39,542 nucleotides of DNA from Myceligenerans pegani. Its GTDB lineage: Bacteria; Actinomycetota; Actinomycetes; Actinomycetales; Cellulomonadaceae. The notes under the pieces are model-generated. The model did not search any database. It was given only the letters and a program-made list of their open reading frames with translations, and had not been told where the DNA came from. Below are positions 2 to 36,128 of the stretch, in pieces. Position 1 is the first letter of the stretch. The number at the start of each line of letters is the position of its first letter. Made by a program: the position numbers and the translations under genes. The DNA lies in contig NZ_JADBGR010000079.1 of the NCBI RefSeq assembly GCF_014892515.1, positions 1 through 39,542 on the forward strand. Direction: 5' to 3'.

Positions 2-3000
2 ACGGCGTTTGTGTTGACGGGGCAGGGGAGTCAGCGGGTGGGGATGGGGCGTGAGTTGTATGGGTCGGAGCCGGTGTTTGCTGCGGCGTTCGATGCGGTG
101 TGCGGGGGGTTGGATGCGGTGCTGGATCGTCCGTTGCGGGAGGTGGTGTTCGCGGAGGAAGGGTCTGCGGAGGCTGGTCTGTTGGAGCGGACGGTGTTTG
201 CTCAGGCGGCGTTGTTTGCGGTGGAGACGGCGTTGTTTCGGCTGGTGGAGAGTTTTGGGGTGCGTCCGGACTTTCTGCTGGGGCATTCGATCGGTGAGGT
301 GACGGCTGCGCATGTGGCGGGGGTGTTGGATCTTGGGGATGCGTGTTCCTTGGTGGCGGCGCGGGGTCGGTTGATGCAGTCGGCGCCGGCTGGTGGCGTG
401 ATGGTGGCGGTGGAGGCGTCGGAGGAGGAAGTGACGCCGACGTTGGTTGCGGGTGTGGAGGTTGCGGGGGTGAATGGTCCGTCGTCGGTGGTCGTGTCTG
501 GTGACGCCCAGGCGGCGCAGCAGGTGGAGTGGGTGTGGCGTGAGCGGGGTCGTCGGGTGAAGCGTCTGTCGGTGTCGCATGCGTTCCATTCGGCGCACAT
601 GGACGGGGTCCTGGCCGAGTTCGAGGAGGCGATCTCGGGTCTGACGTTCCGCGAGCCGGCCATTCCTGTGGTCTCCAACGTGACCGGCCGGATCGCGACC
701 GAGCTGACGTCGCCCGCCTACTGGGCGCGGCAGATCCGTTCGACGGTCCGGTTCCATGACGGTGTACAGACCCTGCGGGACGCGGGTGTGGTGCGCTACC
801 TGGAACTAGGGCCCGACGGCGTCCTGAGCGCCCTCCTGCCCGACGCCGTCCCCGCCCTGCGCACAGGCCGCCCCGAGAAGCTCACCTTCCTGACCGCGCT
901 CGCCACCCTGTTCGCGGACGGCATGGAAGTCGACTGGCGCCGGCTCGCGGCAGGGCCGGCCGTCGACCTGCCCACCTACGCGTTCCGGACCCGGAACTTC
1001 TGGCTCCAGCCGACCCCCGCGGGCGCCGTCGACACCGGTCATCCGGCGATCGGCGGGCCCGTGCCGCTCGCCTCCGGCAACGGGACCGTGTTCTCGGGCC
1101 GGCTCGGCGCGCTGCCCGGGGCCGATCCCGGAGAGGCGCCCGGCTCGGTCGTGCTCGATCTGGCGCTGCACGCCGGAACGGAGCTGGGTGACATCGGCGA
1201 GCTCGACGTCGAGCGGGCGCTCGTGCCGCCCCCGGACGGTGGGCTCGAGGTCCAGGTGGCGGTGGCCGCTCCCGACGAGGACGGCGGTACGCCGTTCACG
1301 ATCCACGCCCGCCCCGAGGACACGGGCGAGACGTGGACCCGCTACGCCACAGGGATCTACGTCCCGGCCGCCGGCCGCCCGCCGGCGGGCGGCGCGACCG
1401 AACCGTTCGAGGTCGCTCTTCCCGAGGACCTCACGGGCGCGGCCCGGCGGTACGCGCTTCACCCGACCCTGCTGGCCGGCGTGTTGCGGGAGGTGTCGCC
1501 GGACGACGCGGTGGTCTGGCGCGGTGTCCGCCTGTATCGCTCGGGAGCCGCGGCGGTCCGCGCCGCGTTCGCGGGCACCGGGCTCACGCTCACGGACCTG
1601 GACGGCAACCTCGTCCTGACCGTCGAGTCCGTCGAGTTCGGCACCCTGGAGCGCGCCGAGCGGCACCACGCCACGGCGCTGCTCGCCCTCGACCGGACGC
1701 CGCTCCCCTCGGTGCATCCGGCTCCTGTCCGGTGGGCCGTGCTGGGCGACGTGGAGCACCTGCTCCCGCAGGCCCCGCATCATGCCACCCTGGCCGAGCT
1801 GACCGGATCCCTCGCGACGCCGGACCGGCCCGAGGCGGTCGTCACCACGGTCGCCGACCCGCATCGCATGCTCACGCTGCTCCGCGACTGGCTGGCCGAA
1901 GACCGCCTCGCCGCCGTGCCGCTGGTCCTGTGCGGCTCTCCCGACGAACCGGCCGCCGCGGTGTCCTGGGGCCTGGCACGCTCCGCCCAGGCCGAGGCCC
2001 CAGGCCGCCTGGTTCTCGTGGACCTCGACGACGCCGGCCCGGCCGACGAGACCCTCCTGTCCGCGGTCGTGGCCTCGGGCGCGCCCGAGGTGTCCGTCCG
2101 CGGCGGCCGGATCTGGACACCCCGTCTGGTGCGGAAGGAGGCCGGGGACACGCCCGGGGCCGTCCCGGACGGCATCGTCCTGGTCACCGGCGGCGCGGGC
2201 GCGCTCGGCTCGCTGGTCGCCCGGCATCTCGTGCGCGAGCACGGCGTCCGGCGGTTGGTGCTGGCGGGGCGCCGCGGACCGGACACCCCGGGCGTGGAGG
2301 CGCTGGCCGAGGAACTGCGCGGGCTGGGCGCGGAGGTCTCGGTGGCCGCGTGCGACGTCGGCGACCGTGCCCAGGTGGCCGCGCTGCTCGACGCCGTCGG
2401 GCCGCTCGCCGGCGTCGTGCACGCGGCCGGTGTCCGCGACAACGGCCTGATCGGCACGCTCACGCCCGAACGACTCGACGCCGTCCTGCGTCCCTCCGTG
2501 GACGGGGCCCGTCACCTGCACGAGCTCGCCGGTGACGTGCCGCTCTTCGTGCTGTTCTCCGCGACGGCCGGCCTCCTCGGGACTCCCGGGCAGGCGGCCT
2601 TCGCGGCCGCGGGTTCCGCACTGGACGCTCTCGCCCGACGACGGCGTGCCCAGGGACAGCACGCGGTGTCCATCGCGTGGGGGCTCTGGGACCTCGGTAC
2701 GGGGCACGACCACGACGCGGACCTCTCCGACCGGCATCGCGAGCGGTACGCGCGTGAAGGCCTCCGACCGATCACGGAGGAGGAGGGCCTGGCCCTGTTC
2801 GACAGGGCGCTGGGGCCGGACACCGATCCGGTCGTCGCGGCGGTGCGTCTCGACCCGGCCGGCCTGCGCGCGTCCGACGACGTCCCGCCGCTGCTCCGCA
2901 CGCTCCTGCCCGCCGGCTCCCGGCGGCCGGTGCGGTCCACGCGGACCCAGCTCCTCGCCGACCAGTTGCACGACCTGGAGCCGGAGGAGCGCGGCGGCCA

Positions 3001-3478
3001 CGTCCTGGACCTCGTGCTCCGCCAGGTCACCCAGGTTCTCGGCGGTGTGGACGCGCCGCCGGACCGCCCGTTCCGTGACCTCGGATTCGACTCGCTGACC
3101 GCGGTGGATCTGCGCAACCGGCTCGCGGCGGCCGCGGGAACCGCGCTGCCCGCGACGCTCGTCTTCGATCACCCGACCCCGGCGGCCCTGGCGGACCGGC
3201 TGATGGAGCTGGTCCTGCCGGACACGAGCCCGGCCGAGCGGGGCAAGGCCGAGCTCGACCAGCTCGGCGACATCATCGCCGGACTCGGGGAGGACGACGA
3301 CGAACTGCGCTCCCTGCTGACCGTCCGGCTGCGGACCCTGCTCGCCCGGCTCGCGGAGAAGCCCGCCCTGCCCGACTGGGACGGCGCGTCCGACACGGCC
3401 GAGCGGATCGAGTCCGCCTCGGCCGCCGAGATCTTCGACTTCATCGACAACGAACTCGGCCGCACGGCCGGCCACTGA
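2..3478 (+). CDS. Modular type I polyketide synthase, 3' part (AT - pseudo-DH - inactive KR - ACP), truncated by window edge
   Basis: The reading frame is open through the left edge, so the KS and gene start lie outside. The AT domain opens with GQGSQ, has its nucleophile in GHSIGE (Ser codon 287-289) and HAFH at 578-589, the motif typical of malonyl-CoA selectivity. A shortened DH-like region (about 1040-1660) lacks the HxxxGxxxxP motif, and HPTLLAG replaces the usual HPxLLDA. The KR keeps a GGAGALG cofactor loop (near 2190), but the catalytic Lys, Ser, Tyr and Asn are replaced by Ser (2495), Ala (2561), Phe (2600) and Gly (2612), so it should not reduce. The ACP has an intact GFDSL serine (3092). 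The C-terminus ends in an acidic helical docking tail. The next PKS gene starts 26 bases on, so this is the penultimate module. By inference it adds malonate and leaves the beta-keto group. Codon use before about base 600 differs sharply from the rest. Confidence 0.95.
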
Positions 3479-3504
3479 CCGCGGTCCGACGAGAAAGGTG
3501 CGCC

Positions 3505-9647
<6,143 letters not shown>

Positions 9648-9648
<1 letters not shown>

Positions 9649-10388
9649 TGGACAGCCTGTGGTTCCGCCGATTCGCCCCCGAAGCCGAGGGCCGCCTGCG
9701 CCTGCTCTGCTTCCCGCACGCCGGAGGTGCCGCCAGCACCTACAGCACGCTCTCGCGGGCCCTCGCCCCGCACCTCGACGTCCTGTCGGTGCAGTACCCC
9801 GGGCGGCAGGACCGCCGGAACGAACCCCTCGTCGCCGAGATCGAGGATCTCGCCGCCCGGATCGCCGACCGGCTGCCGGACGGGCCCTACGCCTTCTTCG
9901 GCCACAGCATGGGCGCCGTCGTCGCCTACGAGGTCGCACGGCTGCTGGCGGACACCGGCCCGGTCCGGATGTTCGTCTCGGGGCGGGCGGCCCCGTCCGT
10001 TCCCAACAGCCGGTTCGTGCACCGGATGGACGACCGAGGACTCATCAGCGATGTCCGGTTCCTCCGAGGTATGGGCAGTTCGGTCCTCGACGACCCCGAT
10101 GTGCTGGCGATGGTTCTGCCGGTACTGCGCGCCGACTACACCGCCATCGAGACGTACCGGTGGACCCCTGGTCCGCCGCTGGAGGTTCCCGTCACGGTTC
10201 TCGTCGGCGACGAGGACCCGCTGGTCGACGCACGCCAGGCCCGTGCGTGGGAGGAGCACACCACCGGCGAGCTCACCCTGCGGCCCTACCCGGGCGGTCA
10301 CTTCTATCTCGAGGATCAGCCCCAGCGGGTGGCCCGGGACCTTCTGGACGACCTCGGCGTGACGGTGGCAGGGCCGAGCCCGCAGTGA
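9648..10388 (+). CDS. Type II thioesterase (alpha/beta hydrolase)
   Basis: A 246-residue stand-alone thioesterase of the kind that clears stalled or misprimed acyl groups from PKS carrier domains. The nucleophile elbow is GHSMG with Ser87, an acid candidate lies in GDEDP (Asp188 or Asp190), and the catalytic His is His218 in GGHFYL. The N-terminal FPHAGGAAS block, which forms the oxyanion hole region, is typical of the family. Its ATG overlaps the TGA of the preceding PKS gene by one base and is preceded by AGAGAGGAAA, so it is translated together with the synthase. Because the synthase ends in a reductase, this protein is more likely an editing enzyme than the product-releasing one. Confidence 0.95.
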
Positions 10389-10430: not shown

Positions 10431-11264
10431 TTGCCTGCCTCTCTCCTCGCCGTGAGCGACCTGCACGTCGCGTACGACGAGAACCGGAGCGTCGTCGACG
10501 CGATCATGCCCGAGACGGACGACGACTGGCTGATCGTCGCCGGGGACGTGGGCGAGCGTTTCGACGACATCGAGGCGACACTGAGCCTGCTGCGCGGCCG
10601 GTTCCGGCGGGTGATCTGGACACCGGGGAACCATGAGCTGTGGACCCATCCCGGTGACGCGGTACAGCTGCGGGGTCAGGCACGGTACGAGGCCCTGGTG
10701 CGCCTGTGCCGCGAGCTCGACGTCGTCACGCCGGAGGACGACTACCCGGTCTGGTCGGCACCGGACGGCCCGGTCGTGGTGGTGCCGCTGTTCGCGCTCT
10801 ACGACTACTCCTTCCGCGTCCCCGGTGCGGACACGAAGGAGGAGTCGCTCCGGCGCGCCCACGACGCGGGCGTGGTCTGCACGGACGAGTTCCTGCTGCA
10901 TCCCGACCCCTACCCGGACCGGGAGTCCTGGTGCCGCGCGCGCGTTGCGGTGACGGAGGAGCGCCTGGCCGCGATCGATCCGACCCTGCCGACGGTGCTG
11001 GTCAGCCACTGGCCGTTGGTGCGGCAGCCGACCGCCGCGCTGTGGTACCCGGAGTTCGCCCAGTGGTGCGGGACCGACCTGACCGCGCGCTGGCACACCC
11101 GGTTCAGGGCGGTCGCGGCCGTCTACGGCCACCTGCACATACCGCGTTCGACGACGTACGACGGCGTCGCGTTCGAGGAGGTGTCGCTGGGCTACCCGCG
11201 CGAGTGGGGGCGGCGGTCGCGGGCTCCCGCGCCGGTCCGCCGGATCCTGGGCGGGCTGCCGTGA
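10431..11264 (+). CDS. pptH: Calcineurin-like metallophosphoesterase, probable phosphopantetheinyl hydrolase (PptH-like)
   Basis: A 277-residue cytosolic metallophosphoesterase. Metal-binding motifs occur in order: SDLH (Asp10, His12), AGDV (Asp39), GNHE (Asn67, His68), a later SHWPL and GHLH near the C-terminus. The start is a TTG 7 bases after GGAGG. The last four bases overlap the start of a phosphopantetheinyl transferase (GTGA). In Mycobacterium tuberculosis a metallophosphoesterase gene (Rv2795c, PptH) sits in the same way before pptT, and the protein removes phosphopantetheine from carrier proteins, opposing PptT. The name here rests on family motifs and this arrangement. A different phosphodiester substrate remains possible. 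Confidence 0.85.
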   Translation: MPASLLAVSDLHVAYDENRSVVDAIMPETDDDWLIVAGDVGERFDDIEATLSLLRGRFRRVIWTPGNHELWTHPGDAVQLRGQARYEALVRLCRELDVVTPEDDYPVWSAPDGPVVVVPLFALYDYSFRVPGADTKEESLRRAHDAGVVCTDEFLLHPDPYPDRESWCRARVAVTEERLAAIDPTLPTVLVSHWPLVRQPTAALWYPEFAQWCGTDLTARWHTRFRAVAAVYGHLHIPRSTTYDGVAFEEVSLGYPREWGRRSRAPAPVRRILGGLP

Positions 11265-11926
11265 TCGCCACCCTGCTCCCGGCGACGGTGCGGGGCGTGG
11301 AAGCGTACGGCGACGTGCGCGACGAGCCGCCGTTCCCCGGCGAGGCCGACCTCGTCGCCGCCGCGGTCGAGGGCCGGCGCAGGGAGTTCGTCACGACCCG
11401 CCGTTGCGCCCGGCAGGCCCTCGCGCAGCTCGGCCTGCCGCCGGTCGCGATCCGTCCCGGCCCCGGACGCGCCCCGAGGTGGCCCACCGGGGTGGTGGGC
11501 AGCCTGACGCACTGCACCGGCTACCGCGCGGCAGCGGTCGCACGCGCGGAGGACGTGTCGGCGGTGGGGATCGACGGTGAACCGCACGCGCCGCTGCCGG
11601 GCGGTGTGCTGGAGTCGGTCGTCGTGCCCGGAGAGACGGAGATGCTGCGCCGGATCACCCGGGTGGACCCGACGACGCACTGGGACCGCCTCCTGTTCAG
11701 CGCGAAGGAGTCGGTCTACAAGGCATGGTTCCCCCTGACCGGCCGGTGGCTGGGCTTCGAGGACGCCCGTCTGGAGATCGATCCGCATGCCCGGACGTTC
11801 ACCGCACATCTCCGTGTCGCCGGTCACCGCCTGGACGGCGCGTCCCCGCTGACCTCGCTGGCCGGATCGTTCCTGGTGGGCCGCGGCCTGGTCCTCACCG
11901 CGGTGGTCGTCGAGCCGCGGGCGTGA
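11261..11926 (+). CDS. pptT: 4'-phosphopantetheinyl transferase, PptT type
   Basis: A 221-residue enzyme of the EntD/PptT group that moves phosphopantetheine from CoA to the serine of carrier proteins, here most plausibly the ACPs of the upstream synthase. It shows the magnesium-binding GIDGEP (Asp105, Glu107), the N-terminal RRCARQAL block, GSLTHC, and FSAKESVYKAWFPL with Lys149 and Glu150. The length is close to PptT of mycobacteria. The GTG start overlaps the stop of the metallophosphoesterase gene by 4 bases, so the two are translationally coupled. It is the last gene of the + strand operon and faces an enoyl-CoA hydratase gene 20 bases away. Confidence 0.95.
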   Translation: MIATLLPATVRGVEAYGDVRDEPPFPGEADLVAAAVEGRRREFVTTRRCARQALAQLGLPPVAIRPGPGRAPRWPTGVVGSLTHCTGYRAAAVARAEDVSAVGIDGEPHAPLPGGVLESVVVPGETEMLRRITRVDPTTHWDRLLFSAKESVYKAWFPLTGRWLGFEDARLEIDPHARTFTAHLRVAGHRLDGASPLTSLAGSFLVGRGLVLTAVVVEPRA

Positions 11927-11946
11927 CGTGCACCGCTCACGGTCAC
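11923..11946. terminator. Possible bidirectional terminator between convergent genes
   Basis: GTGACGTG (11923-11930) can pair with CACGGTCAC (11938-11946) with one bulged base. It fills the 20-base gap between two convergent stop codons. There is no U-tract, so the call is weak. Confidence 0.3.
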
Positions 11947-12738
11947 TCAGCGTCCCGGGAACGACGGTGGCCGCTTGGCCAGGAACGCGGCCGTGCCCTC
12001 GCGCATGTCACCGGTCGTGAACGTCTTCCGGAAGGCCGCCTTCTCGACGGCGAGCGCGTCAGCAGTGGTTCTCCCGACCGAGTCGCCGATCGCCGACTTG
12101 CACAACGCGACCGCGACCGGTGAGCGCGTGGCGATCTCGGCGAGGGTCGCGGCGGCCGAGTCGAGCATTTCCTCTCGCGTGTCGAAGACCCGATTGACCA
12201 GCCCGATCCGCCGCGCTTCGACGGCATCGATCCTCCGGCCGGTGTAGATCAGCTCCTTGGCCCAGCCGGGTCCGACCCGGTGGTGCAACCGCACGCAGCC
12301 GCCGAAGCCCGGGATCAGGCCGAGCGACACCTCGGGCTGGCCGAACACCGCTGAACCGGTGGCGTAGACGAAGTCGGCGGCCATGGCAAGTTCGCAGCCC
12401 CCGCCGAGCGCATAGCCGGACACACAGGCGATCACCGGGACGGGCAACTCTTCGAGCAGGCGGGTGACCCTCTGGCCGAGCGCGCCGAAGGCCTCGCCCT
12501 CGTCCGGGGTCATCACGGACATCTCGCGGATGTCGGCTCCCGCGACGAACGCGCGCTCACCGGCTCCGGTCAGGATGACGCCGCGGATGTCGCTCCCGTT
12601 CGGTGGAAGCGGGCCTTCCAGCAAGATGCCCAACTCGGTGAGCACCTCTCTGTTCAGCGCGTTCAGCGCGTCCGGCCGGTTCACGGTGATGGTGAGGACG
12701 CCGCGGTCGTGCGACAGCAGCAGGGTCTTGTCGGTCAT
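11947..12738 (-). CDS. Enoyl-CoA hydratase/isomerase family protein
   Basis: A 263-residue crotonase-fold protein. The oxyanion-hole segments are AGADI (about 66-70) and YALGGGCELA. Both glutamates used by hydratases are present: Glu116 in GGCELA and Glu136 in QPEVSLG. This favours true 2-enoyl-CoA hydration over a pure isomerase. The gene follows the membrane flavoprotein gene by 12 bases on the same strand and is the third gene of the adenylation enzyme operon. Its CoA substrate is not evident. It could work on the product of the adenylation enzyme if that makes a CoA thioester, or on a general fatty acyl-CoA. Confidence 0.93.
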   Translation of the reverse strand: MTDKTLLLSHDRGVLTITVNRPDALNALNREVLTELGILLEGPLPPNGSDIRGVILTGAGERAFVAGADIREMSVMTPDEGEAFGALGQRVTRLLEELPVPVIACVSGYALGGGCELAMAADFVYATGSAVFGQPEVSLGLIPGFGGCVRLHHRVGPGWAKELIYTGRRIDAVEARRIGLVNRVFDTREEMLDSAAATLAEIATRSPVAVALCKSAIGDSVGRTTADALAVEKAAFRKTFTTGDMREGTAAFLAKRPPSFPGR

Positions 12739-12750
12739 GGTGGTGGCCTC

Positions 12751-14031
12751 TCAGGAGTCCCATATGGCGCCGTAGGCCGGGATGCCCCGCATCTCCAGCT
12801 GCTCGACGACGTTCCAGGTGGTCTTCTTGTTGGAGATGCAGATCACCGCTTCGGCGTCGAACTCGCGGTACGCCTGGTAGGCGAGCGCCACCAGGTCGGG
12901 CTTCCCGAGAGCCGTGGTGTCCCAGATGACCGGATCAGGCTGCACGGCGAGGATTTCTTCGACCAGGTCGTCCCCGTAGGTGGCGCGCGGGTCGCGGGTG
13001 GACCAGACGAGGCGAGACGGCGTCTCGCGCGAGAGCAGGTGTGGCAGGCACGGGCCGATACCGCTGCCGGTGGCCACCCACACGACGCGGCGGAACAGCC
13101 GGTCGATGTTCCCGACGCCGGCTGTCGGGATGCCCTTGACCCACAGGTGCGACGGGCGGTCGTCGATCAGCGCCCCGGTCCAGTCGCCCGCCCGCGAGAT
13201 GGTGAGCCGGAATCCGGGCATGCCGGGAGACGGCACGTTGGCGAAGGAGTGCCATTCGCGCAAAGGGCTACGGCTGACCGTGGTGGACGAGCCGGCGAAC
13301 GGCGTCACGCCGTAGTCGAAGCGCACGAGCGCGACGTGCGAGGAGGGAGAGCTGATGCGTACCGGTACCCGGCGCAGCCGAAGCCACGGCAGGGCGATGC
13401 TGATCGACACGACGAGCAGCACCAGGATCGGTGCCGGCCCGGTCGCGGAGACGAGGGCGGAGAAGAGGAGGGAGTGCAGCCAGAACAGGGCGAGCAGGCC
13501 CCAGCCGCCGAAGCGGTGCATCAGCTCGAAACGGTTGTGGTGGCGCGCCCGGAACGTCGGCAGCGCCGACGTGATCATGGCGAGCAGCAGTGCGGCGATC
13601 AGGTAGGTGACCACGAGCACCGCGGCGCCCACCGGCTGCACGGTCGCGGTGGCCGCGAAGACCAGGAACCACCCGGTCGCGGACGCCATCCCGCCGACGT
13701 GGATGCCGCCGAACACGTGGTAGACCTTGCCGAGCAGGGCGCGCACCCGTAGTGGCCAGGTCACCGGCGCGCTGGTCGCGGACAGGAAGATCGCGTTGAT
13801 CACGTACTGCTGCCGGATCAGCGCCGCGAGTGCGACGTTCGCCAGCACCATGCTCGAGATCGTGCCCAGGTCGCCCCACCAGCCGCCGTCGGCGAGGACC
13901 ACGAGGTTGACCGCGACCACACCGGCGGCGAGCCGGTTGTGGTGCATCAATCGCCGGTGCCGCCACACGCGGCGCCATCTTCCGCGAACCGGTGGCAGCG
14001 GGCGGGCCAGTTCGGTGTCGGCCGGTGTCAT
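12751..14031 (-). CDS. Multi-pass membrane flavoprotein / NAD(P)H oxidoreductase, TmpA-like
   Basis: A 426-residue protein. The N-terminal half holds about six hydrophobic segments (near 33-50, 58-84, 118-160 and 174-206). His172 and His186 lie on one predicted helix with 13 residues between them, the spacing of heme ligands in ferric reductase/NADPH oxidase proteins. The C-terminal half looks like a ferredoxin-reductase fold, with a nucleotide-binding VATGSGIGPC (309-318) and an ending RGIPAYGAIWDS. This combination, next to an adenylation enzyme, recalls the fungal TmpA family, where the two modules can be fused. That resemblance is from memory of the family. The ATG overlaps the stop of the adenylation gene (ATGA), so the two proteins are probably made together. 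Substrate and direction of electron flow are unknown. Confidence 0.78.
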   Translation of the reverse strand: MTPADTELARPLPPVRGRWRRVWRHRRLMHHNRLAAGVVAVNLVVLADGGWWGDLGTISSMVLANVALAALIRQQYVINAIFLSATSAPVTWPLRVRALLGKVYHVFGGIHVGGMASATGWFLVFAATATVQPVGAAVLVVTYLIAALLLAMITSALPTFRARHHNRFELMHRFGGWGLLALFWLHSLLFSALVSATGPAPILVLLVVSISIALPWLRLRRVPVRISSPSSHVALVRFDYGVTPFAGSSTTVSRSPLREWHSFANVPSPGMPGFRLTISRAGDWTGALIDDRPSHLWVKGIPTAGVGNIDRLFRRVVWVATGSGIGPCLPHLLSRETPSRLVWSTRDPRATYGDDLVEEILAVQPDPVIWDTTALGKPDLVALAYQAYREFDAEAVICISNKKTTWNVVEQLEMRGIPAYGAIWDS

Positions 14032-15566
14032 GCCATGGCCTCCTCGGTGGTCAGTCCGGCGACCAGGGCCCGCTTGTCGACCTTGCCGCGGTGCGTGGTC
14101 GGCAGTTCGGCGACAGCCCGGACGGTGGCCGGCACGCAGTAGTAGGGCAGGATGCCCGCGACCACATAGCCGGCCGCGACGGCGTCCACTCCCGCCGGGG
14201 TCACGAAGCCGACCAGTTCGCCGTCGTGCAGCACGGTCGCCGCCCGTTCGCAGCCGGGTGTGCGTTCCAGCGCGGCGGTGATCGCGTCGAGCTCTACCCG
14301 GAAGCCACGAACCTTCACCTGCTCGTCGGTGCGTCCGTGGTGCTCGAGCCGGCCGTCCGGGGTCCATCGGCCGAGGTCGCGGGTGCGGAACATGCGGTTC
14401 TCGCCACCGAGGAACGGGTCGGGACGGTAGCGCTGCGCGGTCAGCTCGGGATTGCCCAGGTAGCCCTGGCTGACGCAGGCTCCACCCGCCCACAACTCGC
14501 CGACCTCGCCGATCGGGCACGGCCGAAGGCGCTCATCGAGCACGTAGACGGTGGTGTTGGGCAGCGGCGAGCCGATCGTGGGCTCCTCGCCGCGCCGGTG
14601 CGGCGGTGCGATCGTGTTCACGATGGTGACCTCGGTAGGCCCGCACGCGTTGTGGAACCGGGCGAACGACGACCAGGCGTCCGCGAGCGGGCGCGGGCAG
14701 CGCTCCCCGGCCACCGCCACCACGGCGACGTTGCGGCACAGGGCCGGATCCAGGCTCGCCAGCACACTCGGTGTCGCGATCACCACGTCGACCGAACGCA
14801 CGGCCTGCAGGATCGAGTCGCCCCTGATCACCAGTTCCGCACCACGGCACAGCGCCACGAAGATCTCCCACGCCGCCATGTCGAACGCGATGTTGAGCAG
14901 CTGCGACACCTTCATGCCCGGTCGGACGCCGAGTGCTCCCGGCCCGTGTGTGACCACGTTGCACAGATTCGCGTGCGTGACGGCGACGCCGTTCGGTGCA
15001 CCCGTGGTGCCCGAGGTGAAGATCACCATCGCCGGACCCCCCGGCGCGCTCGCGACCGCAGGCGGCTCCGCCCGCTCCCCGGAGAGCTTGTCCACCGCGA
15101 GCACCACCCGGCCGGGCAGCGCCGGAAGGGCGGTGACGAACTCGGACAGTGTCAGCACGACACGGATGTCAGCGGTCGCCGCGATATGGGCCAGGTGCGC
15201 ACCCGACGTGATCCGCGCGTCCTGCGGCACGTAGGCGGCCCCTGCCTTCAGTACCCCGAGGATGCCGACGACCATCGGGATCGAGCGCTTCACGAACAGC
15301 CCGACTCGATTCCCGGGGCCGACGCCGAGCCGCACGAGCGACCCGGCGAGAAGGTTCGCCCGTCGGTCGAGCTCGCGGTAGGTCAGCGCCTCGCCGGCAT
15401 GCGTCACCGCGACCGTCCCCGGCCGAAGCCGGGCCATGGCCTCGAACGCCCGATGCAACAGGACGAACGGCGGCGGTGCCGATGCCCCCGCCCCGAAGCG
15501 TCGGAACAACTCTTGGTCGAGTGGCGTCAGGCCGATCAATGCGGACCGGTCGATGCGATTGGTCAT
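14028..15566 (-). CDS. Stand-alone NRPS-type adenylation enzyme
   Basis: About 512 residues, an adenylate-forming enzyme with the core order of NRPS A domains: A3 FTSGTTGAPNG (about 183-193), A4 FDMAAWEIF with Asp229 at the position that binds the alpha-amino group of amino acids, A5 NACGPTE, A8 GRTDEQVKVRGFRVE, and A10 with the catalytic Lys in GKVDK. A7 reads RTRDL where TGDL is usual; the ribose-binding Asp is kept. No carrier, condensation or reductase domain follows, and no free carrier protein was found nearby. It should activate an amino acid, but the acceptor is unknown. First gene of a three-gene minus-strand operon with a membrane flavoprotein and an enoyl-CoA hydratase. GGAG lies about 11 bases before the start. 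Confidence 0.9.
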   Translation of the reverse strand: MTNRIDRSALIGLTPLDQELFRRFGAGASAPPPFVLLHRAFEAMARLRPGTVAVTHAGEALTYRELDRRANLLAGSLVRLGVGPGNRVGLFVKRSIPMVVGILGVLKAGAAYVPQDARITSGAHLAHIAATADIRVVLTLSEFVTALPALPGRVVLAVDKLSGERAEPPAVASAPGGPAMVIFTSGTTGAPNGVAVTHANLCNVVTHGPGALGVRPGMKVSQLLNIAFDMAAWEIFVALCRGAELVIRGDSILQAVRSVDVVIATPSVLASLDPALCRNVAVVAVAGERCPRPLADAWSSFARFHNACGPTEVTIVNTIAPPHRRGEEPTIGSPLPNTTVYVLDERLRPCPIGEVGELWAGGACVSQGYLGNPELTAQRYRPDPFLGGENRMFRTRDLGRWTPDGRLEHHGRTDEQVKVRGFRVELDAITAALERTPGCERAATVLHDGELVGFVTPAGVDAVAAGYVVAGILPYYCVPATVRAVAELPTTHRGKVDKRALVAGLTTEEAMA

Positions 15567-15822
15567 GTGCGGCTGCTCCGTTTCGGGACGGGCTCGCCGA
15601 CGAGAGCGACCTCGAAGCCCTCATCGGCAGGCCCGGGCAGAGATTCGACGCAGAGGGTCTCGGATGGCTCCTTCTGTCAAGAAAAGCTCAGATAATGGCA
15701 ATTCGGCGGTCGCGCTCGCAACGGCACCGTAAGGCAGGGTGTCCCGGAACTGGCACTGACGTAATCGGTTCAGTTCGCCGGCATGGAATTCCCCCCGCGA
15801 CGTGGTCAAGCATGAGTCCGGC

Positions 15823-15828
15823 TAGGGT
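15823..15828 (+). promoter_or_regulatory. -10 element for leaderless glycolipid-binding-domain gene
   Basis: TAGGGT ends 7 bases before the ATG at 15836, placing the predicted transcript start on the start codon. The rest of 15567-15835 separates divergent genes, is locally AT-richer around 15680-15715, and shows no supported gene. Confidence 0.5.
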
Positions 15829-15835
15829 CGGGGAC

Positions 15836-16426
15836 ATGCGGCTCGATCCGATGCCTCTCGTGTCCGCCTGGACGCACAGCGGCGTCCGGGCCGGATTCGA
15901 GGTTCTCTTCGCCGAGACCGTGCCGGCCGGTTATCTGCTGCGTGGGCACACCACCGCCGTCGAGGGCCCTGAGGCATGGTCGGTCGGGTACCGGATCGAG
16001 GCAGATGGGCACTGGCACACCCGCCGTGCCGAGATCGAGAGGATGACGCCGACCGGATCGGCCCGAACCACGCTCGAGCGGATCGATCGCGCGGGCAGCG
16101 TGCAGTGGCTGGTCGAGGGCGTCCTGCGACGCGAGCTCGACGGCTGTCTCGACGTGGACCTCGAGTCGTCGGCGGTGACGAACACCCTGCCGGTCCACCG
16201 GCTGGACGCGGTCGCCGGGAAAACGTACGCCACGCCCGCCGTCTTCGTCCGTGCCGGCACCCTCGCGGTGGAGCGACTCGAGCAGGAGTACCGGCTCGTC
16301 GCCCGGACGTCGGACGAGATCCGGTTCGACTACGCGTCGTCGACCTTCGACTTCCGGTGCGAGCTGAGCTACGACACGTCGGGACTGATCCTGCGGTACC
16401 CGGGGATCGCTCGCCGGACGCGCTGA
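15836..16426 (+). CDS. Putative glycolipid-binding domain protein (PF06475 type)
   Basis: A 196-residue soluble protein without signal peptide or membrane segment. The central GCLDVDLESSAVTNTLPVHR and the later DFRCELSYDTSGL fit the putative glycolipid-binding family common in actinobacteria. The biochemical role of this family is not well defined; its name comes from structural similarity to lipoprotein-localisation folds. The start was chosen because TAGGGT ends 7 bases upstream, which predicts a leaderless mRNA. An in-frame ATG at 15812 is a weaker alternative, since it would lie upstream of that transcript. It is transcribed away from the adenylation operon. Confidence 0.82.
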   Translation: MRLDPMPLVSAWTHSGVRAGFEVLFAETVPAGYLLRGHTTAVEGPEAWSVGYRIEADGHWHTRRAEIERMTPTGSARTTLERIDRAGSVQWLVEGVLRRELDGCLDVDLESSAVTNTLPVHRLDAVAGKTYATPAVFVRAGTLAVERLEQEYRLVARTSDEIRFDYASSTFDFRCELSYDTSGLILRYPGIARRTR

Positions 16427-17071: not shown

Positions 17072-17284
17072 CTACGTCGTCCCGGGATCGTCCTCGACGT
17101 GGATCGTCGCCGACGGGCACAGGTCCTCCGCCTCGCGGACGGCCGCCCACTCCGACTCGGGCGGGTTCTCGTCGAGCACGCTGACGTACCCGTCGTCCTC
17201 CTCCCGGTTCGCGAACACTCGCGGTGCCGTCCGGCTGCAGTTGCCGGAGGCGATGCAGGTGGTCGGGTTGACGGTGACTCTCAT
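17072..17284 (-). CDS. Small [3Fe-4S]-type ferredoxin
   Basis: A 70-residue acidic ferredoxin. The cysteine pattern is Cys10 and Cys16 in TCIASGNCS, then a single CP in DLCPSATI, with Ala in place of the second cysteine of a 4Fe cluster. This is the pattern of single-cluster [3Fe-4S] ferredoxins that donate electrons to monooxygenases. It starts 19 bases after the fatty acid desaturase stop, on the same strand, with GGAGGA upstream. The arrangement suggests it feeds electrons to that desaturase, since no cytochrome P450 is visible in the window. Confidence 0.9.
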   Translation of the reverse strand: MRVTVNPTTCIASGNCSRTAPRVFANREEDDGYVSVLDENPPESEWAAVREAEDLCPSATIHVEDDPGTT

Positions 17285-17303
17285 GAGCGTATGTCCTCCA
17301 TGC

Positions 17304-18347
17304 TCAGCCGCGGTACCGGCGCACCAGCGGGCAGGTGTACGGGTCGCGGTGCTTCAGCCCGACCTGATTCAGGTAGGCGATGATCGTCCGGAAGGCTCCG
17401 CCGAGCGATGTCTCCGTGTAGGGGATGTCGTTCTCGGCGCAGTAGCTGCGGACGAGCTTCCGCAGGGCGGGCAGGTTCGGGCGGGGTGCCATCGGGAACA
17501 GGTGATGCTCCACCTGGTACTCCAGGCCGCCCATGAAGAAGTGCACCAGCGGCCCGCCCCGGACGTTTCGGGACATGTAGATCTGCCGGCGCAGGAAGTC
17601 GATGTCGGCGTCGTGCGGGACGGTAGGCATCCCGATGTGGTTGGGGGAGAACGCGCCACCCAGCAGGAACCCGAACACGGCGACCTGCACGGCCACGAAG
17701 GCGACCGCCATCCCGGGCGGAAGAACGATGAACAGGAAGCCGAGGTACCCGAGGACCCGGACCCCGACGAAGAGGATCTCGGTCCAGCGGTGGGTGACGT
17801 CCTTGCCGCCGAGGATGGTCCTGAACGAACTGGCATGCAGCGAGAATCCCTCGAAGAGCAGGAGCGGGAGGAAGTAGTAGCCCTGATACCTGGCGAGCCT
17901 CGCGGCCAGGCCGGTGCGCTCGTCGGTGCCGTCCGGCGTGAAGGACAGTACCCGGGACCGGACGTCGGGGTCCTCACGTTCCTTGTTCGGGTTGGCGTGG
18001 TGCCGGCCGTGCTTGTCCACCCACCAGCCGTAGCTGAGTCCGTTGAGCAGCCCGGCGATGATGCGTGCCGTCCACTCGTTCCAGCCGTCGGAGGCGAAGA
18101 TCTCCCGGTGGGCCGCCTCGTGCCCGAGGAATCCGAGCTGTGCCATCGTCACGCCGAGCAGGGCCGCCAGGAGGAGCTGGAACCACGTGTCACCCAGCAC
18201 GGCCACGCCGACGAGGATCGCCACCGTGGCCAGCGTCCAGAACAGCATCATCGCCCAGTAGAAGCCGTAGCGACGGCGCATCAGGCCGGCGTCGTTGGCC
18301 TGCGTCGTCAGCTCGTGAAAGGCTTCTACGTACCGGTTGGCGGGCAT
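17304..18347 (-). CDS. Membrane fatty acid desaturase
   Basis: A 347-residue di-iron membrane desaturase. The three histidine boxes are HEAAH (76-80), HGRHH (113-117) and QVEHH (278-282). Glutamine at the start of the third box is the form found in front-end type desaturases, but there is no fused cytochrome b5 domain, so an external donor is needed; the next gene encodes a ferredoxin. Hydrophobic segments flank the boxes. The start at 18347 has GGGAGGA 5 bases upstream. An in-frame ATG at 18443 would add 32 polar residues, and it lies exactly where a leaderless transcript from the TAGCAT box would begin, so two starts may be used. Substrate and regiochemistry cannot be read from sequence. 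Confidence 0.92.
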   Translation of the reverse strand: MPANRYVEAFHELTTQANDAGLMRRRYGFYWAMMLFWTLATVAILVGVAVLGDTWFQLLLAALLGVTMAQLGFLGHEAAHREIFASDGWNEWTARIIAGLLNGLSYGWWVDKHGRHHANPNKEREDPDVRSRVLSFTPDGTDERTGLAARLARYQGYYFLPLLLFEGFSLHASSFRTILGGKDVTHRWTEILFVGVRVLGYLGFLFIVLPPGMAVAFVAVQVAVFGFLLGGAFSPNHIGMPTVPHDADIDFLRRQIYMSRNVRGGPLVHFFMGGLEYQVEHHLFPMAPRPNLPALRKLVRSYCAENDIPYTETSLGGAFRTIIAYLNQVGLKHRDPYTCPLVRRYRG

Positions 18348-18449
18348 GGTCGTCCTCCCAGGCCCGGCGCCGTTCGGGCGGAGTGCGCGGACGGGCCGGT
18401 CGTTCCGTGTCGGCGGCGGTTCCGAAGGCTGATTGCCGTCCATCGAGTG

Positions 18450-18523: not shown

Positions 18524-19114
18524 CTAGCCGCCCGGCCTCCCGGTCCCCGGCGGATCGGTGGTGAAGAGCCCGCGGTGCAGGATCTCGCGCGTCGCGTCCG
18601 CCGGTGGCCGGAGCCCCGCACTCGTCTCCGCCGCCTGGACGGCCATCGCCATCGGGAGCGTGAGCAGCACGTGCTGCGTGGTGACGGACGGGTGGGTGAG
18701 GCCCGCCTCGCGTGCCCTCGCCAGGAGCGGTTCGAGGGCCGACGCCGTCCGCTCGGCGAGGTCGCCGAGGGCGCGCAGCTCCACGTCACCGCCGGGGGTG
18801 ACGACGAGCGCCAGCCACGGGGCGCCCCGCTGCATGTCATGCATGAAGTGGAACAGGCGCACCGCGCCGTCGTCGGCGTCCGACAGCTTCGCGGCCTCGG
18901 TCTCGATGTCCACGACGTTCTGCCACATGACGGCCGAGACCAGCGCCGGACGATCCGCGAAGTGCCGGTGCAGGGTGGTGCGGCTCACGCCCGCCGTGCG
19001 GGCGATCTCCTCGAGCGGGGCGTCCGGCCCGAGGTCCGCGAACACCCGCCGGGCGGCGGCGACGAGGCGCTCGCGGTTGCGCGCGGCGTCCCGCCGGGTT
19101 GGAGCTTCCGTCAT
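18524..19114 (-). CDS. TetR family transcriptional regulator
   Basis: A 196-residue TetR repressor. The N-terminal helix-turn-helix (about residues 12-55) contains LEEIARTAGVSRTTLHRHF. The C-terminal ligand-binding part is not diagnostic. It is divergent from the Baeyer-Villiger monooxygenase gene, and a palindrome lies between them, so it likely controls that operon and itself. The ATG is preceded by TAACCT with a 6-base spacer, indicating a leaderless mRNA. The inducer might be a ketone or lactone linked to the monooxygenase, which is inference. Confidence 0.93.
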   Translation of the reverse strand: MTEAPTRRDAARNRERLVAAARRVFADLGPDAPLEEIARTAGVSRTTLHRHFADRPALVSAVMWQNVVDIETEAAKLSDADDGAVRLFHFMHDMQRGAPWLALVVTPGGDVELRALGDLAERTASALEPLLARAREAGLTHPSVTTQHVLLTLPMAMAVQAAETSAGLRPPADATREILHRGLFTTDPPGTGRPGG

Positions 19115-22369: not shown

Positions 22370-23836
22370 ATGAGGAAGTCCATCGCAAGTCTCGCGCTGG
22401 GGCTGGCCACAGCCCTGGCGCTGGTCACCGCAGCGGCGGTGCCTCCCGATCTCACCCCCGCGGCCGCGGCGGGCCCGAACCTGCTCACGAACAGCGACAT
22501 GGAGAACGGCACGACCGGCTGGTCGACGTTCGGCGCGGGATCCCTGGCCTCCACCACCAACCCCGTCCACGGCGGAAGCCGTGCCCTCTCGTACACGGGC
22601 CGCACGGCGTCGTGGAACGGCCCGTCCCAGAACGTGACGTCCGCGCTGACGAACAACACCAGCTACACGACGAGCGTGTGGATGCGGACGCAGGGCGGGA
22701 GCCCGACCGGCAAGGTCACCCTGGCGGTGACCGCCGGCGGCTCGACCAACTACATCCAGCTCGCGCAGGGGGCCGTGAACTCCTCGGGCTGGACCCAGCT
22801 GACGGGCACCACGACGGTCTCCTGGTCCGGCACGCTGTCGTCTGCCACGTTCTACGTGGAGACGACCGGCGGGACCGACAACCTCTACGTCGACGACGTC
22901 TCGTTCATGAGCAACTCGTCGTCGTCCTGCGACCTGCCCTCGAGCTACCGCTGGTCCTCCACGGGCCCGCTGGCGCAGCCGCGGTCCGGCTGGGTCTCGC
23001 TCAAGGACTTCACGGTGGCCCCGTACAACGGTCAGCAGCTCGTCTACGCGACGACCCACGACTACGGCACGTCCTGGGGCTCGATGAACTTCGGCCTCTT
23101 CTCCGACTACTCGCAGATGGGCAGCGTCTCGCAGAACGCGATGTCGTCCGGCACGGTGGCCCCGACGCTGTTCTACTTCGCCCCGCGCAACATCTGGGTG
23201 CTCGCCTACCAGTGGGGCCCGTCGCCGTTCATGTACCGCACGTCGAGCGACCCCACGAACCCGAACGGCTGGTCGGCGGCGAGCCCGCTGTTCACCGGGT
23301 CGATCAGCGACTCCGGCACCGGGCCCATCGACCAGGCGCTCATCGGCGACGGCCAGAACATGCACCTGTTCTTCGCCGGGGACAACGGCAGGATCTACCG
23401 GTCCAGCATGCCGATCGGGAACTTCCCGGGGAACTTCGGGAGCAACTACTCCGTCGTCATGAGCGACACCCGGAACAACCTGTTCGAGGCAGTCCAGGTC
23501 TACAAGGTCAAGGACCGGAACCAGTACCTCATGATCGTCGAGGCGATCGGCGCGCAGGGCCGCTACTTCCGTTCCTTCACGGCCAACAGCCTCACCGGTT
23601 CGTGGACGCCGCAGGCCGCCTCGGAGAGCAACCCGTTCGCGGGCCGGGCCAACAGCGGTGCCACCTGGACCAACGACATCAGCCACGGTGAGCTGCTGCG
23701 CACCAGCGCCGACGAGACCATGACCATCGATCCCTGCAACCTGCGGTTCCTGTACCAGGGTCGTGACCCCAGCTCGGACGGGACGGACTACGGCCTGCTG
23801 CCGTACCGCCCGGGTCTGCTGACGCTCCAGCGATAG
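22370..23836 (+). CDS. Secreted GH62 alpha-L-arabinofuranosidase with N-terminal carbohydrate-binding domain
   Basis: A 488-residue exported enzyme that removes arabinose side chains from arabinoxylan. The signal peptide is residues 1 to about 34, ending in a run of Ala. Residues 36-180 ([15 protein letters not shown] onward) look like a CBM4/9/22-type beta-sandwich. From CDLPSSYRW at 187 the GH62 catalytic domain runs to the end, with Asp213 (SLKDFT), Asp321 (GPIDQ) and Glu373 (LFEAVQVY) at the positions of the family's catalytic triad. AGAGGAG lies 6 bases before the ATG. Two LacI-like palindromes upstream suggest repression by a sugar-responsive LacI regulator, which is not in the window. 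A hairpin 16 bases after the stop may end the transcript. Confidence 0.95.
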
Positions 23837-34945: not shown

Positions 34946-36115
34946 TCACCAGATCTGGCCGGCCCACTCCGGGTGGTCGATGAACGGGTTCCGGTTGCCC
35001 TGCCAGTCGGTGTAGATGATCTCGTTGCGGCGCCGCTCGGTGGCCGAGACAGGGTCGGACGCGTGCCAGTCGAGCAGCACGGAGATCCGCCCGTGCCAGG
35101 GCGCCGAGCCGCTGCTCACCGCGTCGTTGAGCTCCAGGTCCACGCCGTCGTCGCCCTCGTACCGCACGGCCATGTAGAAGAGCATCCGCGCGACGTCGCC
35201 CTTGACCCGGTCCGGCGGCTCGAACGAGTCGGCGTCGGTGTAGCAGCCGCCGCAGCCCGAGACCGACGAGCCGCCCTCGTCGAAGTCCTTGTTGCCGCGG
35301 GTGGAGTTCACCTGGACGTCGCTGGGCCGCAGGTGGTGCAGGTCCGTGCCGGGCCCGGCGGAGGTGCCGAAGTCGCCGTGGCTCTTGGCCCAGGTGTGCT
35401 CCCGGTTCCAGTCGCCCACGTTCCCGCCGTTGTCGTCCTTCGAGATCGAGGTGCCGGTGTACAGCTCGATGACGTTGCTCGAGTCGTTCGGGTCCTCGTC
35501 GGTCTCGCGCAGCGCGGTCCACACGGTGGAGTAGCTCAGTTCGGCGTGGTCGTCGATGATCCCGTGGAGCGCGGACTTCAGGGCGTTCCCGGTCAGGCCG
35601 TCCGCCGCGTCGTAGTACCCGGCCGGTTCGTCACCGCCGGGATCGCTCCCCCCGCCGTCACCGCCGTCGTCCCCACCGTCGACGACGGCGAACGCACTGC
35701 CGTTCTTGAGCCCCGGCCGCGAGAAGTAGGTCGTCAGCGTCCCGGTCACGTCGAGGAGCTGGCCCATCCGGCCCGGGTTGGACGCCAGGCCGAAGTCGGC
35801 GCGGAAGCCGCTCGGGATCTGGACGTAGAGCATGTCTTCCGTGTCGGTCTCGCCCGGGGCGTCGGCGAGCGCCAGCGCGTAGTCGGTGGGGAAGCCGCTG
35901 GTGACCACGGTGCCGGACGAGATGGGCTGCCCGACGACGTACCCCCGCACCGTGGCGGTCGATCCGTCCTGCGTGGCGCGAGCCTGGGCGACGCCGATCG
36001 GCGTCGCGGCGCTGCTCGGCGGGGCGGCGCCGAGTGGCGCGACCCCCGCGAGGAGGAGGGAGAAGGAGAGAGCCAGGACCGTGGACAGGGCTGGGCGCCC
36101 TCGCAGCTGCCGCAT
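34946..36115 (-). CDS. Secreted endonuclease I family nuclease with OB-like N-terminal domain
   Basis: A 389-residue exported protein. The signal peptide is about residues 1-37 (Arg-rich start, hydrophobic LALSFSLLLAGVAPLG). Residues 40-145 resemble the OB-like domain found in front of secreted nucleases (DUF6359 type). A flexible Gly/Asp/Ser linker follows. The C-terminal domain has the endonuclease I (EndA/NucM) motif NREHTWAKSHG, then DLHHLRPSD and NSTRGN, giving the beta-beta-alpha metal nuclease core. Likely degrades extracellular DNA or RNA for nutrients. The ATG at 36115 is preceded by TAGGGT with a 7-base spacer, so a leaderless start is preferred over the GTG at 36124. Confidence 0.9.
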   Translation of the reverse strand: MRQLRGRPALSTVLALSFSLLLAGVAPLGAAPPSSAATPIGVAQARATQDGSTATVRGYVVGQPISSGTVVTSGFPTDYALALADAPGETDTEDMLYVQIPSGFRADFGLASNPGRMGQLLDVTGTLTTYFSRPGLKNGSAFAVVDGGDDGGDGGGSDPGGDEPAGYYDAADGLTGNALKSALHGIIDDHAELSYSTVWTALRETDEDPNDSSNVIELYTGTSISKDDNGGNVGDWNREHTWAKSHGDFGTSAGPGTDLHHLRPSDVQVNSTRGNKDFDEGGSSVSGCGGCYTDADSFEPPDRVKGDVARMLFYMAVRYEGDDGVDLELNDAVSSGSAPWHGRISVLLDWHASDPVSATERRRNEIIYTDWQGNRNPFIDHPEWAGQIW

Positions 36116-36122
36116 GTATTTC

Positions 36123-36128
36123 ACCCTA
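36123..36128 (-). promoter_or_regulatory. -10 element of the secreted nuclease gene
   Basis: TAGGGT on the minus strand ends 7 bases before the ATG at 36115. A 10-base palindrome, ACGGTACCGT (36153-36162), lies upstream and could be an operator. Confidence 0.45.

Follow-up and report, generated by a model that had tools for sequence, protein, structure and literature searches.

A three-gene operon of Myceligenerans pegani with an adenylation enzyme, a membrane oxidoreductase and an enoyl-CoA hydratase, and its likeness to fungal TmpB

Contig NZ_JADBGR010000079.1 of the actinomycete Myceligenerans pegani, analysed here over 39,542 nucleotides (hereafter the window), carries an operon of three genes that encode an adenylation enzyme (ADE), a membrane oxidoreductase (MEM) and an enoyl-CoA hydratase (ECH). 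This trio appears to be the bacterial, mostly split form of the fungal TmpB kind of protein. The contig has a guanine plus cytosine content of 72% and the genome a size of 5.87 Mb. The features of the operon are as follows.

14028..15566, minus strand: ADE, 512 amino acids, stand-alone adenylation enzyme of the nonribosomal peptide synthetase (NRPS) type, pocket code DMWIAAAIVK, L-alanine predicted as substrate
12751..14031, minus strand: MEM, 426 amino acids, putative membrane oxidoreductase with a GSGIGP nucleotide motif, an EWHSFA flavin-type motif and the invariant residues H105, H111, H165 and H172
11947..12738, minus strand: ECH, 263 amino acids, predicted enoyl-CoA hydratase (crotonase) with catalytic E116 and E136
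14028..14031, minus strand: ATGA start-stop overlap, read from the sequence, in which the ATG of MEM overlaps the TGA of ADE

The operon is real: the open reading frames (ORFs) and their coordinates on the minus strand agree with a first-pass annotation of this DNA, which had taken the ATGA overlap between the first two genes and the 12 bases between the MEM stop codon and the ATG of ECH as marks of a single unit. The longest ORF of MEM begins further upstream at a GTG, the ATG at 14031 being the likelier start. With a start-choice rule applied to the ORFs, a gap of -4 between ADE and MEM is found in 45 of 79 pairs, 11 of the 45 being fusions. A promoter and terminator scan over 11800-15900 found neither element.

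With MEM alone as the query against genome contigs we obtained 229 relatives, the best 80 of which were kept as homologous loci (numbered with the prefix L), the remaining 149 lying outside the analysis. Immediately upstream of MEM, and on its strand, ADE is encoded in 79 of the 80, L080 beginning within MEM; ECH follows immediately downstream in 78, being absent from L031, while L039 stops at the contig edge. All three genes stand in order in 77, the exceptions being L031, without ECH, and L039 and L080, at contig ends. Because these loci had been picked by MEM alone, the trio recurs above chance. Addition of further genome stretches gave 108 loci with both ADE and MEM, 107 of them distinct, as L058 and L160 are identical (counts of rows include both copies). 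The first-pass annotation had named the lack of a homologous pair in other genomes as grounds for refutation; the pair is present in many of them, the hosts of the trio belonging to four phyla (Actinomycetota, Bacteroidota, Chloroflexota and Pseudomonadota). The canonical order is kept in 105 of the 108 pair-bearing loci (exceptions L031, L039 and L168).

The distribution of the module is patchy. MEM is present in 3 of 396 Actinomycetota genomes (the window's own counted), and in 2 of 296 sampled Bacteroidota genomes (the seed G422 counted). Among 250 genomes of the family to which Micromonospora sp. KC606 belongs it is present in 29 (seed counted), and five of these 29 hold only a solo MEM (L179-L183). 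Six solo paralogues, about 50% identical, were found with neither ADE nor ECH nearby; one of these (L180, 6852-8804) is followed by a gene for a small Rieske protein, a possible electron partner. A second, diverged MEM copy (L126, 7426-8682) occurs in the Kribbella genome whose L031 pair has no adjacent ECH, and in L166 (G761:C1:1615783-1617068) the MEM matches are split into two pieces in different frames, so that this copy may be broken or misread.

ADE and MEM form a single ORF in 14 of the 108 pairs, 11 of them in Bacteroidota from the first scan and three in the Micromonospora family. On a tree of 111 MEMs with all rows labelled, a quick build without bootstrap, four changes between the fused and split states are needed, each a gain or a loss, and three of these are forced by starred branches. 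Repeated fusion of ADE and MEM is the simplest reading of this tree. The pairwise distances of the two proteins correlate with r = 0.94 (102 rows), a value that includes shared species history.

In fungi, according to the available passages of PMC4804170, TmpB is an adenylation domain (A domain) fused to TmpA, and a gene for an enoyl-CoA hydratase lies beside tmpB. The fungal architectures described in the passages at hand are TmpA alone and the fused TmpB and TmpL. The GSGIGP motif is named for TmpL in the part of PMC2766074 that was available, which also records a flavin spectrum for the TmpL domain expressed alone and an upset of redox homeostasis in fungi on loss of TmpL. In the sections seen of Bushley and Turgeon (PMC2823734), stand-alone A domains of Salinispora and Hahella were grouped with ChNPS12, in which an A domain is fused to a ferric reductase-like domain. 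The trio is like TmpB, TmpL and ChNPS12 in combining an NRPS-type A domain with a membrane protein that carries GSGIGP, and like tmpB in its adjoining hydratase gene, the fungal proteins having been likened by description and motif rather than by sequence comparison. It differs in that the domains are fused in the fungi, whereas in the window they are encoded by separate overlapping genes; the window trio is therefore a split counterpart and not a member of the TmpB class, because the two domains are not in one polypeptide. The likeness to TmpA and TmpB asserted in the first-pass annotation comes out stronger than it was put there, in view of the hydratase gene beside tmpB and the 14 bacterial fusions. 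The fungal proteins have roles in conidiation, redox balance and virulence, and, in the fungal passages available, their authors proposed that a diffusible signal might arise when an activated amino acid is oxidised or reduced, an idea also put forward in the first-pass annotation. Among the matches listed in our literature search (titles and abstract openings, with most subscription journals outside its coverage) there was no paper describing a bacterial operon of this kind, and the available parts of PMC9030710 and PMC5561558 contain nothing on the trio.

AMP-binding is the sole Pfam domain of the window ADE (1.2e-64), and the NCBIfam model TIGR01733 matches it with 347.8 bits, above the cut-off of 317.4. 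The Asp of amino-acid-activating A domains, already remarked on in the first-pass annotation, is D229, which together with K495 corresponds to the Asp/Lys of such domains; D and K are kept in 105 of 105 ADE rows. Read from the alignment at what we take to be the pocket positions of PheA, the code of the window protein is DMWIAAAIVK, and all 105 rows fit DMW[IV][AI]A[ACSG]I[VI]K. DltA, the D-alanine–carrier ligase, is alike in its adenylating fold and small amino acid and different in that ADE scores 154 bits with TIGR01734 against a cut-off of 560 and no carrier partner was found for it.

The code printed for Sare0718 of Salinispora arenicola is the same as that of the window ADE (PMC3360062). 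Sare0718 had been predicted from its code to activate L-Val before it was assayed in 2012, when of 20 proteinogenic amino acids it activated L-Ala only (PMC3360062). It is also stand-alone and is flanked by sare0716, an enoyl-CoA hydratase gene, and sare0717, a hypothetical gene at the position of MEM (PMC3360062). The two loci differ in that the phosphopantetheinyl transferase (PPTase) gene of S. arenicola adjoins the A-domain gene, whereas that of the window lies beyond the hydratase on the other strand. From the shared code and gene order Sare0718 is a probable orthologue of the window ADE, which, since its code is identical to that of an assayed enzyme and its gene order similar, probably activates L-Ala. 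A protein of the molecular weight given for Sare0718, 60.287 kDa, has no counterpart among the Micromonosporaceae fetched. A layout of PPTase, ADE, MEM and ECH is found in L164 and L195, with the ADE codes DMWIAASIVK and DMWVAASIVK. The first-pass annotation had called the system uncharacterised, which is no longer so for the adenylation enzyme, given the L-Ala assay of its probable orthologue; it stands for the middle gene, as PMC3360062 treats the A domain alone, calls that gene hypothetical and does not use the word TmpA.

Matches to the window MEM were absent from Pfam and NCBIfam at E 0.01, and from the Protein Data Bank (PDB) by phmmer at E 10. The GSGIGP motif (G322-P327) is invariant in 30 of 30 aligned MEMs, and H105, H111, H165 and H172, together with H232, H261 and H331, are His in all 106 non-solo MEMs, the window included. 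A profile of MEM compared by hhalign with one of 12 actinobacterial PF01794 proteins, as one pair outside any database, gave a probability of 69% and an E value of 4.3e-5 over 202 columns; the alignment spans residues 137-359 of the window MEM, from the fourth hydrophobic stretch to the NAD domain, and runs through the flavin and nucleotide motifs. The top match in a profile search of the PDB was NOX2, with an alignment on EWH.F...GDWT and an E of 0.22 that is not significant, and Pfam Ferric_reduct was found in 2 of 30 members (best 2.5e-5) alongside unrelated families. MEM shares with the FRE/NOX superfamily a hydrophobic N-terminal half, EWHSFA (compare EWHPFT in NOX2) and a GxGIGP motif, and differs from it in not conserving the double His pairs that would hold two hemes and, for the window protein, in having no Pfam match. 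These sequence comparisons suggest that MEM is a remote relative of the ferric reductase/NOX superfamily, and we infer that it is a flavoprotein. For the flavin reductase fold assigned to MEM in the first-pass annotation, the sequence offers support from motifs and from this remote profile match.

The case for heme is weaker. The first-pass annotation had argued for it from an H-x13-H helix; this pair is H172/H186 in the window, but position 186 is His in only 43 of the 106 non-solo MEMs (Gln in 44, Leu in 16, Met in 2 and Phe in 1), and across the relatives that argument breaks down. His was never seen at 117-121 or 123-126, where the spacing would place partners of H105 and H111, in the same 106 proteins, and MEM accordingly lacks the two His pairs (H-x12/13-H) for two hemes. 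From spacing, one may guess at a single heme held by H105 or H111 with H172.

The third gene encodes a crotonase with both catalytic Glu residues, in keeping with the hydratase named in the first-pass annotation; every one of the 79 rows, that of the window among them, retains the Glu pair and the oxyanion Gly. Its best NCBIfam model is the short-chain NF004475 at 277.8 bits, below the cut-off of 394, and it is 49% identical to the clostridial crotonase 5z7r. Two types of crotonase seem to occupy this slot: the 18 rows of the window type share a mean identity of 42% (34-58) with the other 85, against 62% for MEM and 58% for ADE across the same split. The NCBIfam models that score best differ as well, NF004475 for the window ECH and NF004517 for those of L009, L011 and L003. 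Within the other 85 identity drops as low as 35%, and the ECH of the Saprospiraceae locus L002 is 57% identical to that of the window, yet stands among the 85, its MEM grouping with Bacteroidota. From these identities we infer that ECH may have been replaced at this slot, and the occurrence of two types suggests that a hydratase is wanted there whatever its origin.

It is possible, and we propose it tentatively as something short of probable, that the trio forms a self-contained inner-membrane pathway of alanine activation, membrane redox chemistry and hydration that yields a small alanine-derived product. ADE would adenylate L-alanine, as reported for its probable orthologue with the identical code, and the alanyl group would be passed to a thiol, most likely that of coenzyme A. 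MEM, docked to ADE and equipped with flavin, NAD(P)H site and possibly one heme, would oxidise or reduce the alanyl unit or an intermediate closely linked to it; the recurrent fusion of ADE and MEM suggests that MEM acts on or beside the product of ADE. ECH could then hydrate or dehydrate the short unsaturated thioester so formed at its C=C bond, and a small alanine-derived product would be released and might leave the cell. The whole scheme would parallel that of fungal TmpB, where a single protein comprises the first two enzymes and the hydratase gene is its neighbour. Radical deamination of alanyl-CoA was considered and dropped, a heme being on general grounds not reducing enough.

Several points weigh against this pathway, and its weakest step is what MEM does to the product of ADE. 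Dehydrogenation of acyl thioesters is not what FNR-type flavin proteins normally do; they transfer electrons to acceptors. The strongest hydropathy blocks of MEM are 34-73, 121-162 and 176-222, and H105, H111 and H172 fall outside them, which is why heme binding is put no higher than a guess. The hhalign match is remote and stops short of H105 and H111, and within it H172 lies three columns off the inner His of the ferric reductases while H186 falls on the outer one. The solo paralogues, which lack an A domain nearby, suggest that MEM can work alone. ECH may be auxiliary, since its distances correlate less well with those of the other two proteins (r 0.68 and 0.74) and it is absent in L031 and L168. 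The panel on which Sare0718 was assayed comprised proteinogenic amino acids only, and its authors allowed that the substrate in vivo may differ (PMC3360062). Our literature search found no measurement of any step after adenylation in these bacteria.

Genes adjoining the trio vary between loci. A gene for an extracytoplasmic function (ECF) sigma factor follows ECH in 16 of the 80 first-scan loci (the family was confirmed by Pfam in L001, L007 and L019; in L007 it lies at 8000-8515), and in L017 an anti-sigma zinc-finger protein is encoded after it. The window, searched with that sigma factor, gave nothing, though its MEM belongs to the same clade. A DUF6733 gene follows the trio in 15 of the 80 loci, all Bacteroidota (Pfam scans of L002, L009 and L026; examples are L009 8171-8896 and L026 8276-9004), and in L018 the trio is followed by a gene for a putative porin of the TorF family. 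Our impression is that DUF6733 may be an outer-membrane barrel; the literature search returned no paper on it. As a dedicated partner of the trio it was rejected, since it occurs in 7 of the 296 sampled Bacteroidota genomes, including both that bear MEM and five that do not, and inspection by eye of its neighbourhoods in these five gave no clue. The sigma-factor neighbours might hint at redox or stress control, and DUF6733 and the porin at passage through the outer membrane. In the window, the genes beyond the hydratase end of the operon are these.

11-9648, plus strand: type I polyketide synthase (PKS), two proteins, the first cut by the contig start and the second ending in a thioester reductase domain
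in the 8691-10388 frame, plus strand: thioesterase, after the type I PKS
10431-11926, plus strand: metallophosphoesterase and PPTase pair, overlapping genes
11261-11926, plus strand: PptT/Npt-like PPTase, GTG start, overlapping the metallophosphoesterase by 4 bases

The pair of metallophosphoesterase and PPTase presumably resembles the mycobacterial PptT-PptH pair.

Other explanations of the trio put the weight on different members of it. It is rather unlikely, but deserves attention, that MEM acts chiefly as an electron conduit setting redox balance, with quinone, oxygen, ferric iron or a periplasmic partner at its far end. ADE and ECH would then provide or turn over a small ligand or substrate by which the conduit is tuned. 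The idea stays alive because ferric reductase-like proteins as a rule deliver electrons to an acceptor. In its favour, MEM is remotely similar to the ferric reductase/NOX superfamily, it has six solo paralogues, one of them (L180) followed by the Rieske protein, its trio is followed by an ECF sigma factor gene in the 16 loci and by the zinc-finger anti-sigma gene in L017, and loss of TmpL disturbs redox homeostasis in the passages of PMC2766074 mentioned above. The recurrent fusion with ADE and the fixed ADE code, however, point to a substrate channel rather than to general redox control, and export of electrons across the membrane is disfavoured by the failure of the second His pair, for an outer heme, to be conserved by spacing (117-121 and 123-126 never His, 186 in 43 of 106).

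A small catabolic or salvage route seems distinctly unlikely. In such a route ADE would turn a non-proteinogenic amino acid resembling alanine into an aminoacyl-CoA, MEM would oxidise it and ECH would hydrate the product, as in beta-oxidation. ECHs of the other type in L009, L011 and L003 score 364-387 with their best model, NF004517 for enoyl-CoA hydratase, close to its cut-off of 396, and the TorF putative porin of L018 could serve uptake. On the other hand, it would be unusual for a catabolic route to use an NRPS-type A domain instead of an acyl-CoA ligase, and of the neighbour families in the clusters listed (unannotated, each present in six loci or more) none apart from the trio extends across the phyla. 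We regard as very unlikely a role in which ADE charges a carrier elsewhere in the genome with alanine, with MEM and ECH modifying the unit on that carrier for use in an NRPS or PKS product. A PPTase gene near the trio in the window, in L164 and L195 and in S. arenicola (PMC3360062) would suit it, as would the PKS of the window. The first-pass annotation had stated that no carrier is fused or nearby; this is so for discrete carriers, and a Pfam scan finds no condensation or carrier domain fused to the window ADE, but two acyl carrier protein (ACP) domains of the PKS are encoded on the opposite strand, at distances of about 3.5 and 8.7 kb from the hydratase end. On the other side, the window PPTase sits in its overlapping pair with the phosphoesterase, likewise on the other strand, and as a fixed partner of the trio it was rejected, having no match in the 80 first-scan loci (E 1e-10, 80 bits). 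A loose six-frame search for carrier motifs, based on motifs alone, matched in 19 of the 80 loci, none of them convincing by eye as a carrier beside the trio; the one match examined inside an ADE, that of L068, falls in an insertion.

A broader reading can be framed, which we think unlikely: that an ancient module common to the four bacterial phyla and the fungi makes an alanine-derived diffusible molecule, a substrate-fixed A domain handing an alanyl adenylate or thioester to a new class of flavoprotein, perhaps with one heme, whose action on the activated amino acid takes place at the membrane, and a recruitable hydratase finishing the product. On this reading the bacterial product and the TmpB conidiation signal of fungi would be compounds of one kind. 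TmpA, TmpB and TmpL influence sporulation, virulence and redox balance in fungi, and in the available passages of PMC4804170 and PMC2766074 no product is named. The bacterial trio splits the functions into separate, tractable genes in cultivable bacteria, one of which has the probable orthologue with a measured substrate (L-Ala), and the question of the fungal product thereby becomes testable. MEM is itself a well conserved family, the window copy of which is matched by no Pfam or NCBIfam model.

The remaining features noted in the window lie on the ADE side of the operon, the first of them divergent from ADE.

15476-16426, plus strand: Glycolipid_bind family gene, true start probably later
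17072-18443, minus strand: fatty acid desaturase overlapping a 4Fe-4S ferredoxin gene
18524-19114, minus strand: TetR regulator, upstream of the desaturase and ferredoxin pair
22370-23836, plus strand: GH62 glycosyl hydrolase with CBM_4_9
34946-36124, minus strand: endonuclease I with DUF6359

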